Assembly (NCBI RefSeq): GCF_010731815.2
Contig: NZ_AP022593.1
Span: 930,001 to 994,000, forward strand
Source: Mycolicibacterium arabiense
GTDB lineage: Bacteria; Actinomycetota; Actinomycetes; Mycobacteriales; Mycobacteriaceae
DNA length: 64,000 nt
Reading direction: 5' to 3'
Both the position numbers and the translations under genes were made by a program. The notes beneath the pieces are model-generated. The model was not told the DNA's origin, ran no database searches, and saw nothing but the letters and a program-made list of their open reading frames with translations. Each line of letters begins with the position of its first letter. The first letter of the stretch is position 1. This document shows, one piece after another, positions 51,918-54,812 of this stretch.

Positions 51918-51970
51918 GCCGCCCGGCCCCCTACTACGGCCTGTAGTTCGGTTTGTCCTACCATCGAAGC

Positions 51971-52960
51971 GTGGCCATCCGACGCTTGTTCATGAAGGGC
52001 GTCGACCTGCTGCCCCTACCCAGCCTGCGCGTGCAGCGCATCATCGCGGCGGTCGTCGTGCTCACCCAGGGCGGCATCGCGGTGACGGGCTCGATCGTCC
52101 GCGTCACCGCGTCGGGCCTGGGCTGCCCGACGTGGCCCCAGTGCTTCCCCGGCAGCTTCACTCCGGTCCCGCACGCCGAGGTCCCCGGAATCCATCAGGC
52201 CGTGGAGTTCGGCAACCGCCTGATCACGTTCCTGGTGGTGCTGACCGCCGCGCTGGCCGTCCTCGCGGTACTGCGCGCCCGCCGTCGCCGCGAGGTGCTC
52301 GTCTACGCCTGGCTGATGCCTGCCTCGACCGTCGCGCAGGCGGTCATCGGCGGCATCACCGTCCTCACCGGGCTGCTGTGGTGGACGGTCGCGATCCACC
52401 TGCTGGTGTCGATGGCGATGGTGTGGCTGGCCGTGCTGCTGTACGTCAAGATCGGCGAACCCGACGACGGAGTGCCTCAGCGGCTGGTCCCGAAACCGCT
52501 GCGCCAGTTGACCTTTCTGAGCGCCATGGCGCTGTCGGTGGTCCTCGTCACCGGGACCATGGTCACCGGTGCGGGCCCGCACGCCGGCGACAAGAGCATC
52601 GACGCGCCCATCCCGCGGTTGGGGCTGGACATCGTCACGCTGGTCTACCGGCACTCCGCGCTGGTGACCGCCTACCTCTGCCTGCTGATCGGCCTCGCGT
52701 TCGCGCTGCTGGCCGTGCGCGCACCGCGCCCGGTCACGATGCGGCTCGTCGTGCTGGTGATCCTGGTCGCCCTACAGGGCATGGTCGGAACGGTGCAGTT
52801 CTTCACCGGCGTGCCCGCAGCCCTGGTGGCCGTGCACGTCGCGGGCGCCGCGATCTGCACGGGTGCGACGGCCGCGCTATGGGCGTCGATGCGACAGCGG
52901 ACCCAGGCCGAACCCGTCGAGAGCCGACTCGACGGCGAGCGCGAACTCTCGCTGCCGTAA
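51971..52960 (+). CDS. ctaA: heme A synthase CtaA/COX15
   Basis: A 329-residue eight-helix membrane protein that oxidises heme o to heme a for cytochrome aa3. Family motifs: TGSIVRVTASGLGCPTWPQC (with a cysteine pair), GIHQAVEFGNRL, GGITVLTGLLWWTVAIHLL, TGAGPHAGDK and the C-terminal VAVHVAGAAICTGAT, with the four conserved histidines visible. M. tuberculosis Rv1456c is often annotated as an antibiotic transporter but is this family. GTG 51971 follows TACCAT (51959-51964) by 6 nt, a leaderless arrangement. Its last 84 bp overlap the convergent ATP-grasp gene. Confidence 0.93.
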   Translation: MAIRRLFMKGVDLLPLPSLRVQRIIAAVVVLTQGGIAVTGSIVRVTASGLGCPTWPQCFPGSFTPVPHAEVPGIHQAVEFGNRLITFLVVLTAALAVLAVLRARRRREVLVYAWLMPASTVAQAVIGGITVLTGLLWWTVAIHLLVSMAMVWLAVLLYVKIGEPDDGVPQRLVPKPLRQLTFLSAMALSVVLVTGTMVTGAGPHAGDKSIDAPIPRLGLDIVTLVYRHSALVTAYLCLLIGLAFALLAVRAPRPVTMRLVVLVILVALQGMVGTVQFFTGVPAALVAVHVAGAAICTGATAALWASMRQRTQAEPVESRLDGERELSLP

Positions 52961-53815
52961 CGCACGGTCTTCGTCGCTCAGCTGCCGCCATCCCAGCGAC
53001 GGCTCGACCAGTTCCAGTTCGAGCAGGCGCGGATCGTCACGCTCGCCGATGACGTCGACGCGGGCGTAGAGGAAGTCCGACGGCGCCCTGCCCAGACGGT
53101 CCGCTGCAGCCGTGAGTGCTGCGTGCCCGACTGCCCACAGTTCGAAGTCGGGTTCTGCCGGGCGCAGCGACTCCTCGGCGTACGTGCCGGATTCGTCCAT
53201 GGCGGGGGCACTACCCGGCGGTGGCAGCAGCGGGCCCTTGGTGAAGGCGTGCGACTGCTGGCCGGCGAGGAACACCAGCGCCGTCTCGCCTGCCTCGATC
53301 CTGGGGTCGTACGGCTGTACGAGCGCGGTGCGGCCGGAGGCCTGCAGTGCGGCGGCGTGTCGGCCGGCGGCTTCGGGGTCGGTGAAGCGCCGGGCGCCAA
53401 CGGAACCCGCGCCCACTGCGGGTTTGACGACGACTTCGCCGTCGGGCACTCGCACGGCCGCACCGGGCGCGAAGAACAGGCTGGGCACAGTCGGGACGCC
53501 GGCCGTCGCGAGATCGTCGAGGTAGCGCTTGTCGCTGTTCCACGCCACCACGTCGGGACCGTTGAGCAGGTTGGGCACCCGCCTCGTCCACGCCAGGAAC
53601 TCGTCGAGACGGTCGGTGTAGTCCCACGTCGCGCGCAGGATGACCAGGTCGGCCCGCTCCGTATCGGGGTCGTCCCAGGCGAGCCAGCGCGCGTGCAAAC
53701 CACGCGCCCGGAGCGCTCCCGCGAGCCCCGCGTCGTCACCGTCACCCTCGACGAGGGCCTTGCAACCTGCGAAGACGATGCGAGGATGCCGAACGTCGGG
53801 CCGTGCGAGTTTCAC
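52877..53815 (-). CDS. ATP-grasp family protein (Rv1455-like)
   Basis: A 312-residue protein of the ATP-grasp type: ADLVILRATWDYTDRLDEFLAW, NSDKRYLDDLATAGVPTVP, VVKPAVGAGSVGARRF (ATP-binding lysine) and DFLYARVDVIGERDDPRLLELELVEPSLG (metal-binding acids). Similar to RimK/glutathione-synthetase-like ligases; the substrate is unknown. GTG 53815 is chosen since TATCAT on the minus strand ends 7 nt before it. The 3' end overlaps ctaA by 84 bp, and the start is 19 bp from the divergent qor ATG. Confidence 0.88.
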   Translation of the reverse strand: MKLARPDVRHPRIVFAGCKALVEGDGDDAGLAGALRARGLHARWLAWDDPDTERADLVILRATWDYTDRLDEFLAWTRRVPNLLNGPDVVAWNSDKRYLDDLATAGVPTVPSLFFAPGAAVRVPDGEVVVKPAVGAGSVGARRFTDPEAAGRHAAALQASGRTALVQPYDPRIEAGETALVFLAGQQSHAFTKGPLLPPPGSAPAMDESGTYAEESLRPAEPDFELWAVGHAALTAAADRLGRAPSDFLYARVDVIGERDDPRLLELELVEPSLGWRQLSDEDRALRQREFALAVESALDGFGLGPLSHRRP

Positions 53816-53821
53816 TGTTGG

Positions 53822-53828
53822 AATGATA
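53822..53828. promoter_or_regulatory. shared bidirectional -10 element (candidate)
   Basis: The 7 bases AATGATA give AATGAT on the plus strand (7 nt before the qor ATG) and TATCAT on the minus strand (7 nt before the ATP-grasp GTG). Only 19 bp separate the two start codons, so each gene's -10 must lie in or near this space. The arrangement fits a symmetric promoter driving two leaderless transcripts. Confidence 0.55.
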
Positions 53829-53834
53829 GGTGGC

Positions 53835-54812
53835 ATGCACGCCATCGAAGTCGCCGAAACGGGCGGACCCGAAGTCCTCAACTACGTCGAGAAGTCTCAG
53901 CCCGCACCCGGGCCGGGCCAGGTTCTGATCAAGGCCGACGCCATCGGCGTCAACTTCATCGACACCTACTTCCGTTCGGGTCAGTATCCGCGCGAACTGC
54001 CCTTCGTCGTGGGCACCGAGGTGTGCGGCACGGTCGCCGAGGTCGGCGAGGACGTCGCCGCGCTGGCCGTGGGCGACCGCGTGGTGACCGCCCAGGCCGT
54101 GGGCGCCTACGCCGAGTACTGCCTGGCCCCGGCCGACTTCGTCGCGTACGTCCCGGACGCCGTGTCCGCTGACGTCGCCGCCTCGGCGCTGCTCAAGGGC
54201 ATGACGGCGCACTACCTCATCAAGTCCGTCTACCCCGTGCAGCAGGGCGACGCCGTGCTGGTGCACGCCGGCGCGGGCGGCGTGGGGCTGATCCTGACCC
54301 AGTGGGCCACCAGCATGGCCGTGAAGGTCATCACCACGGTCTCGACGCCGGCCAAGGCCGAGCTGTCGCGCAAGGCGGGCGCCATCGAGGTCCTCGACTA
54401 CCCCGGCGACGACCCGGCGGAGTTCGGCGCGAAGGTGCGCGACCTGACCGGCGGTGTCGGGGTTGCCGCGGTGTACGACGGCGTGGGCGCCTCGACGTTC
54501 GAGGCGAGCCTCGCCAGCCTGGCGATCCGGGGCACGCTCGCGCTGTTCGGCGCGGCGAGCGGCCCGGTGCCCCCGTTCGACCCGCAGCGGCTCAACGCCG
54601 CCGGTTCGCTGTTCCTGACCCGACCGACGCTTGCCCACTACGCCTCTACCCCCGACGAGTTCTCCTGGCGGGCGGGCGAACTGCTCGACGCGATCGCGAC
54701 GGGCACGCTGGAGGTGACGGTCAGCGAGCGGTACCCGCTGGCGGAGGCCTCCCGGGCGCACGCCGACCTGCAGGGCCGCAAGACCGTCGGCTCGGTGGTC
54801 CTGGTGCCCTGA
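53835..54812 (+). CDS. qor: quinone oxidoreductase, zinc-independent MDR family
   Basis: A 325-residue medium-chain reductase/dehydrogenase: GVNFIDTYFRSGQYP, GTEVCGTVAEVGEDV and the NADPH-binding HAGAGGVGLILTQWA; no zinc-ligand cysteine set. QOR enzymes reduce quinones with NADPH. ATG 53835 fits the orthologue Rv1454c length; ATG 53823 in frame is less likely since it lies within the -10 candidate. Confidence 0.94.
   Translation: MHAIEVAETGGPEVLNYVEKSQPAPGPGQVLIKADAIGVNFIDTYFRSGQYPRELPFVVGTEVCGTVAEVGEDVAALAVGDRVVTAQAVGAYAEYCLAPADFVAYVPDAVSADVAASALLKGMTAHYLIKSVYPVQQGDAVLVHAGAGGVGLILTQWATSMAVKVITTVSTPAKAELSRKAGAIEVLDYPGDDPAEFGAKVRDLTGGVGVAAVYDGVGASTFEASLASLAIRGTLALFGAASGPVPPFDPQRLNAAGSLFLTRPTLAHYASTPDEFSWRAGELLDAIATGTLEVTVSERYPLAEASRAHADLQGRKTVGSVVLVP

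Follow-up and report, generated by a model that had tools for sequence, protein, structure and literature searches.

A single pseudo-symmetric -10 element that probably serves two divergent leaderless or near-leaderless genes in Mycolicibacterium arabiense and its relatives

Promoters that are transcribed in both directions from one -10 element have been described by Warman, Grainger and colleagues. According to the available text of these papers, such bidirectional promoters carry a nearly symmetric -10 whose position -11 on one strand falls on position -7 of the other, and their transcription start sites (TSSs) lie 18 bp apart in the commonest case, although distances of 10 and 23 bp are also common and small variation in this distance is caused by a variable gap to the TSS (PMC10268837, PMC12825309). 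In E. coli, 24% of bidirectional promoters were found between divergent genes, yielding two mRNAs; the word "leaderless" does not occur in the available text of either paper (PMC10268837, PMC12825309). In mycobacteria, the accessible parts of the literature describe the -10 element as ANNNT at a distance of 6 to 9 nt from the TSS and report no clear -35 (PMC5511352, PMC6448022, PMC3898074), and an RTG at +1 has been shown to suffice for leaderless translation (PMC5511352, PMC6448022, PMC3898074, PMC4633059). A figure legend in Cortes 2013 presents the divergent genes Rv1129c and Rv1130 as both giving leaderless messages and calls closely juxtaposed divergent promoters common (PMC3898074).

The locus compared with these systems here lies in a 64,000-nt stretch of M. 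arabiense DNA, referred to as the window, and consists of two divergent genes. On the plus strand, positions 53835 to 54812 encode a qor-like NAD(P)H:quinone oxidoreductase of 325 aa, which matches PF00107 and PF08240 and scores 301 bits against NF008024, below the cutoff of 348. On the minus strand, positions 52877 to 53815 encode a ligase of 312 aa related to the D-cycloserine synthetase DcsG; with 190 bits against NF058666 the protein does not reach the curated cutoff of 360 bits and is thus regarded as a relative, and not called a member, of this family. No Pfam match was found for the ligase at E 0.01, and we take it to be of the ATP-grasp type from the name given by an earlier sequence-only reading of this DNA and from the nature of DcsG. 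The ligase gene overlaps a convergent ctaA-like gene (51953 to 52960) by 84 bp at the 3' ends (52877 to 52960). Within the genus, 197 of 198 genomes have a homologue of the ligase; in a sample of 201 genomes taken at family rank, the ligase is present in 42, 15 of them from the genus itself (the genome studied here, G000, included) and 27 from outside it; among the 15 outside-genus ligase loci that were fetched, the qor anchor was found in one (L253), 307 nt away. Since both reading frames are open across the spacer, with ORFs that extend to 53640 on the plus strand and to 53881 on the minus strand, stop codons leave the starts unfixed; the starts used here rest on homology, and the relatives align from the first residues.

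The 19-nt spacer (53816 to 53834), TGTTGGAATGATAGGTGGC, is bounded by the GTG of the ATP-grasp gene, which reads CAC at 53813 to 53815 on the plus strand, and by the ATG of qor at 53835 to 53837. The sequence-only reading had singled out the bases AATGATA between these start codons, which give AATGAT 7 nt before qor and TATCAT 7 nt before the ATP-grasp gene, and this was confirmed: they occupy 53822 to 53828 in exact symmetry, with G53825 lying 10 positions from the first base of either start codon. The core of this putative shared -10, which belongs to neither strand in particular, is ATGAT (53823 to 53827), a palindrome that is perfect except for its centre and in which A53823 and T53827 fit both directions, A-11 and T-7 being reciprocally paired. 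Read towards qor, the predicted -10 is AATGAT (NANGAT; 53822 to 53827, plus strand), 7 nt before the ATG and accompanied by the TG of an extended -10 at 53819 to 53820 on the same strand, where TGGAATGAT fits the motif TGNNANNNT reported in the accessible text of PMC5511352. Read towards the ATP-grasp gene, the predicted -10 is TATCAT (53823 to 53828, minus strand), 7 nt before the GTG, with a T-12 that would serve this direction only (53828, an A on the plus strand). On both sides the window therefore has ANNNT 6 to 9 nt upstream of an RTG start. The outer bases are asymmetric; T-12 is present for the ATP-grasp gene and absent for qor, and the TG extension is found on the qor side, with a full TATCAT lacking this extension on the other. 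Judged from the -10 spacing, the qor TSS is predicted at the A of its ATG (53835, plus strand), preceded by C at -1, and the ATP-grasp TSS at the G of its GTG (53815, minus strand), the A one base upstream (53816) being a near alternative. No -35/-10 pair was scored in 53600 to 54100, and a canonical promoter of this kind was rejected as the main reading for that reason. A search for Shine-Dalgarno (SD)-like motifs (GGAG, GAGG or AGGA 4 to 16 nt upstream) found none in the window spacer.

By itself, the window spacer is weak evidence and within chance; it is the comparison with relatives that makes the case strong. Mononucleotide shuffles of the 19-nt spacer placed ANNNT 6 to 8 nt from both ends in 20% of cases and at the exact 7/7 position in 7%, and the divergent pairs in 1.2 Mb of the same genome contained one shared core against a shuffled-spacer mean of 0.51 (maximum 3). 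As significance within the single genome failed on both the 20% of shuffles and the 1 against 0.51, the weight of the argument was taken from the relatives. The same genome sample (60 stretches, G000:C2:1-1200000, about 19% of 6.45 Mb; home-made gene caller, several starts per gene allowed) did provide a reference for leaderless starts. Of the 1028 predicted starts, 64 have TANNNT 6 nt upstream, 38 have it at 7 nt and 24 at 8 nt, as against 0 to 5 starts at each of the other distances scanned (2 to 24 nt), a peak that marks leaderless genes as common in this genome and makes a gap of 7 nt ordinary for such a gene. Among 160 divergent pairs, 15 had ANNNT 6 to 8 nt from both starts (shuffle mean 1.4, maximum 6), so that divergent leaderless pairs look enriched, and doubly leaderless pairs of this kind may be a general feature of the genome. 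A single shared core was found in the qor pair only.

The relatives were represented by 328 loci, which together with the window gave 329 sequences; these loci, 80 of them named, came from best-match lists and from 140 places picked among the matches listed. They are a sample of those matches and not a census of all 396 genomes, and the class proportions given here are to be read accordingly. Eighteen sequences had no qor anchor and three had no ATP-grasp anchor (L308, L313 and L328), and the 308 anchored sequences were reduced to 230 distinct 85-nt stretches, from which L161, with no scorable core and with its anchored start 12 nt inside a likely earlier ATG, was dropped. The remaining 229 include the window's own stretch, identical in L001 and L081, and one from outside the genus (L253).

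In 141 of these 229 sequences (class S, the sharers), one ANNNT lies 6 to 7 nt from qor and, on the other side, 6 to 9 nt from an ATP-grasp start that is in frame; the spacers are 17 to 21 nt long and their flanks differ, as in CAC-GTTGGA-ATGATA-GGTGTC-ATG, CAT-GACGGGC-ATGATG-TCACCT-ATG and CAT-GCCCGGGC-ATGATA-TCCAC-ATG. Lack of conservation of the spacer among relatives was one ground on which the sequence-only reading could have been refuted, and with the element shared in this number of distinct sequences it did not refute the reading. The scan was built on ANNNT, which is therefore invariant in class S, but 124 of the 141 sharers have ATGATA exactly, and the inner bases vary (ATGAT, AGGAT, ACGAT, AGACT) while the next A is kept in 139, giving ANNNTA, or TANNNT in the ATP-grasp direction. 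In the qor direction, G-9 and A-8 are each found in 140 of the 141.

Among the 141 sharers, 74 have an 8-nt gap on the ATP-grasp side and 7 have one of 9 nt, which makes a leader of 1 to 2 nt possible there. The promoter could thus be shared with qor alone strictly leaderless, the ATP-grasp message starting at A53816 or nearby. This is a refinement that overlaps the best explanation, and we regard it as plausible, if on the whole doubtful. It agrees with the common TSS distance of 18 bp in the available text of PMC10268837, which would put the minus-strand TSS at 53816, an A on that strand. On the other hand, the TANNNT peak in the genome sample spans 6, 7 and 8 nt, so that a gap of 7 nt is nothing unusual where the start codon is at +1, and an RTG at +1 is favoured over one at +2 to +5 in M. 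tuberculosis in the part of PMC4633059 that was accessible.

Two further classes show other arrangements. In class D1 (21 of 229; L018, L109, L116, L122, L125, L137, L139, L178, L261, L263, L312, L314-L317, L319-L322, L324 and L326), the shared element is kept and the ATP-grasp start is preceded by a predicted 11-nt leader that opens with ATG or GTG and forms a 4-codon ORF (e.g., MRSA, VRSA, VKTG) ending on the ATGA of the ATP-grasp start. The interchange of ATG and GTG may mean that a start codon at the TSS is selected. In class D2 (67 of 229), the ATP-grasp gene does not use the shared element; 52 of the 67 have their own TANNNT 6 to 10 nt upstream of the ATP-grasp start (shuffle mean 2.5, maximum 7), 35 of these at 6 to 7 nt and 17 at 9 to 10 nt, where leaders of a few nucleotides are likely, and neither a shared nor an own element was found in 15. 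Scored as in the window, SD-like motifs occur before the ATP-grasp start in none of the 141 sharers, 17 of 21 D1 and 12 of 67 D2 sequences, and before the qor start in 13 of 141, 15 of 21 and 19 of 67, respectively. Elsewhere in the genus, qor is 354 nt away in L179 and L185 and absent from the 400 nt fetched at L181, L184, L187 and L191; given these six loci, sharing is dispensable and the unit is not essential. In L221 (genome G328, about 3.1 Mb), the spacer has 22 nt, the core is CATGCT and the homologous ATP-grasp start codon is ACG, and sharing may be decaying there.

The conserved bases could instead be the site of a regulator, both genes having 5' leaders that arise from promoters inside the neighbouring coding sequence. 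An element of 5 to 7 nt is short for a regulator's site, neither of the two proteins matched a regulator family, and in 141 sequences, with spacers of differing length, the element lies 6 to 9 nt from either start codon; no -35/-10 pair was scored nearby. Regulator binding was rejected as the main reading, and we consider it very improbable. The accessible text of PMC5648196 does describe one mycobacterial precedent in its favour, the divergent lysG-lysE pair, in which overlapping promoters are combined with an inverted repeat bound by a regulator.

A different possibility is that ATGAT is the -10 of qor only, the reverse TATCAT being a by-product of the palindrome and the ATP-grasp gene being transcribed from inside qor or from elsewhere. 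The needs of qor could indeed suffice to keep the ANGAT core, since G-9 and A-8 before qor are also kept in class D2 (66 and 64 of 67). The base that follows ANNNT bears on this directly, as it is T-12 of the reverse -10 and lies outside the -10 of qor. An A at this position was found in 139 of 141 class S sequences as opposed to 28 of the 88 others (Fisher p about 1e-30, kinship ignored), and 60 of the 67 class D2 sequences carry a G there. To allow for the kinship of these sequences, a tree for a paired test was built from the qor DNA of those 191 of the 229 loci that had enough of it, gain and loss being indistinguishable on this tree. The tree requires 19 changes between the shared and the separate state, of which supported branches force at least 10. 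In 10 phylogenetically independent pairs on supported branches, class S being compared with all others, the A base went with sharing in an average of 7.3 pairs and against it in 0.0 (median p 0.016, range 0.008 to 0.125), one opposite pair being found in 4 of 200 random pairings. Counting D1 as sharing gave a median p of 0.008; as D1 was defined with the use of the A base, which it carries in 21 of 21 by construction, the fair figure is that for class S against all others. On the simplest interpretation, the A is kept for the sake of the ATP-grasp promoter as long as the element is shared, and may change freely otherwise. Together with the 52 of 67 non-sharers that have another TANNNT 6 to 10 nt before the ATP-grasp start and with the lack of SD-like motifs before that start in the sharers, this makes a -10 for qor only improbable.

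The sequence-only reading had called the -10 symmetric, and this held for ANNNT but failed for the outer bases. In the qor direction, T-12 was found in 0 of 229 sequences, and the extended -10 is represented in the sharers by TG in 27 of 141 and by the G (G-14) alone in 126. The common core thus appears to be supplemented by a different set of outer bases in each direction. The GA at -9 and -8 of the qor -10 is nearly invariant, which is stricter than ANNNT demands.

We consider it likely that one pseudo-symmetric SigA-type -10 serves both genes, qor being leaderless and the ATP-grasp gene leaderless or near-leaderless. The comparison thus bears out the one -10 for two leaderless genes that had been read from the window, with the qualifications that the ATP-grasp side is possibly near-leaderless and that the TSSs are predicted. 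The analysis shows how the spacer is laid out, that this layout is conserved, that the direction-specific base goes with sharing, and that TANNNT peaks 6 to 8 nt before starts in the genome sample; from these we infer two TSSs, use by SigA, mutual exclusion and any regulatory benefit. The 19-bp spacer would then be a minimal bidirectional promoter in which the pseudo-palindromic ANNNT, present on both strands, together with A53828 as T-12 of the minus strand, could be occupied by RNA polymerase in two opposite orientations. In one orientation, the polymerase would melt ATGAT and start at A53835, giving a leaderless qor mRNA, and in the opposite orientation it would start at or beside G53815, giving a leaderless ATP-grasp mRNA. 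As these orientations would be mutually exclusive, the two genes would share a site and not an initiation event. The earlier suggestion that expression of both genes is tied to one melting event is accordingly not supported, as polymerase would bind one way round at a time. At E. coli bidirectional promoters, the accessible text reports that opposing polymerases cannot bind simultaneously, that basal activity was too low for competition at five tested promoters, and that activating one side can repress the other (PMC12825309). By analogy, the two genes that share the qor spacer are more likely to be independent when activity is low and to compete when it is high.

A bolder proposal, which we think unlikely as it stands, is that the 17-21 bp unit is the whole promoter of both genes as well as the join of their start codons, and has been selected through much of Mycobacterium because polymerase exclusion fixes a useful trade-off between quinone reductase and ligase; lineages that leave this arrangement have a second -10 and lack the base needed only by the shared element. 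If true, it would provide a natural, replicated experiment on bidirectional promoters.

Further analysis of the 160 divergent pairs showed that in three others the two TANNNT elements have their TA in common (ANNNTANNNT), each element lying 6 to 7 nt from an RTG (G000:C2:127398/127422, 232926/232951 and 1099993/1100018; loci L335, L340 and L383/L384). In this they resemble bidirectional promoters of the 23-bp class, and both of their starts are predicted to be leaderless. The pair at 127398/127422 presumably consists of a Ser/Thr kinase gene beside a gene for a small HTH-like protein, these names having been assigned by eye. Two of the three pairs were traced in relatives, with 30 loci each. 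For the kinase pair, the compact 23-nt ANNNTANNNT spacer was found at its own locus and in 3 of 29 others (L389-L392), and the remaining loci have spacers of differing length, many with two separate elements as judged by eye and not by score. For the exonuclease pair, ANNNTANNNT was seen by eye in a few other loci (e.g., L420, L421, L422 and L427) and was absent from many. Sharing looks less stable at these two pairs, and with two pairs for comparison the qor pair thus seems unusual in having retained it.

Bidirectional -10 promoters and leaderless genes are thus both known, and the qor pair is a variant in that it would unite them with no UTR on either side, a union that was not found described. 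In a literature search confined largely to openly accessible main texts, no description of two leaderless mRNAs from one shared -10 was recognised. If the recurring pair does lack 5' UTRs, there would be no leader effects, and only the direction in which polymerase lands would be left. Moreover, this gene pair is found among the relatives in both the shared and the separate form, the latter for example in Mycolicibacterium frederiksbergense (L051), which makes the effect of sharing directly testable, and for annotators the locus indicates that in mycobacteria even a very short spacer between divergent genes can be a complete promoter. With the mycobacterial leaderless genes in the available text of Cortes 2013 (PMC3898074), Shell 2015 (PMC4633059) and Martini 2019 (PMC6448022), the locus has in common an ANNNT or TANNNT a few nucleotides before an ATG or GTG, which is here the predicted TSS, and no conserved -35; it differs from them in that one -10 would serve two genes, and for Rv1129c/Rv1130 one shared -10 is not described in the available text of PMC3898074. 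The D1 arrangement is like the coupled leaderless small ORFs linked by RTGA in the accessible part of Shell 2015 (PMC4633059), as its predicted message opens with RTG and its ORF stops on ATGA, but unlike that class the coupled small ORF is found in 21 of 229 sequences only, and not in the window. With the bidirectional -10 promoters, the qor spacer shares the reciprocal pairing of A-11 and T-7, which is also present in 141 of 229 sequences; unlike them, it has predicted TSSs 20 bp from each other, each falling on a start codon, which would leave no 5' UTR on either side, in a layout that recurs through the genus.
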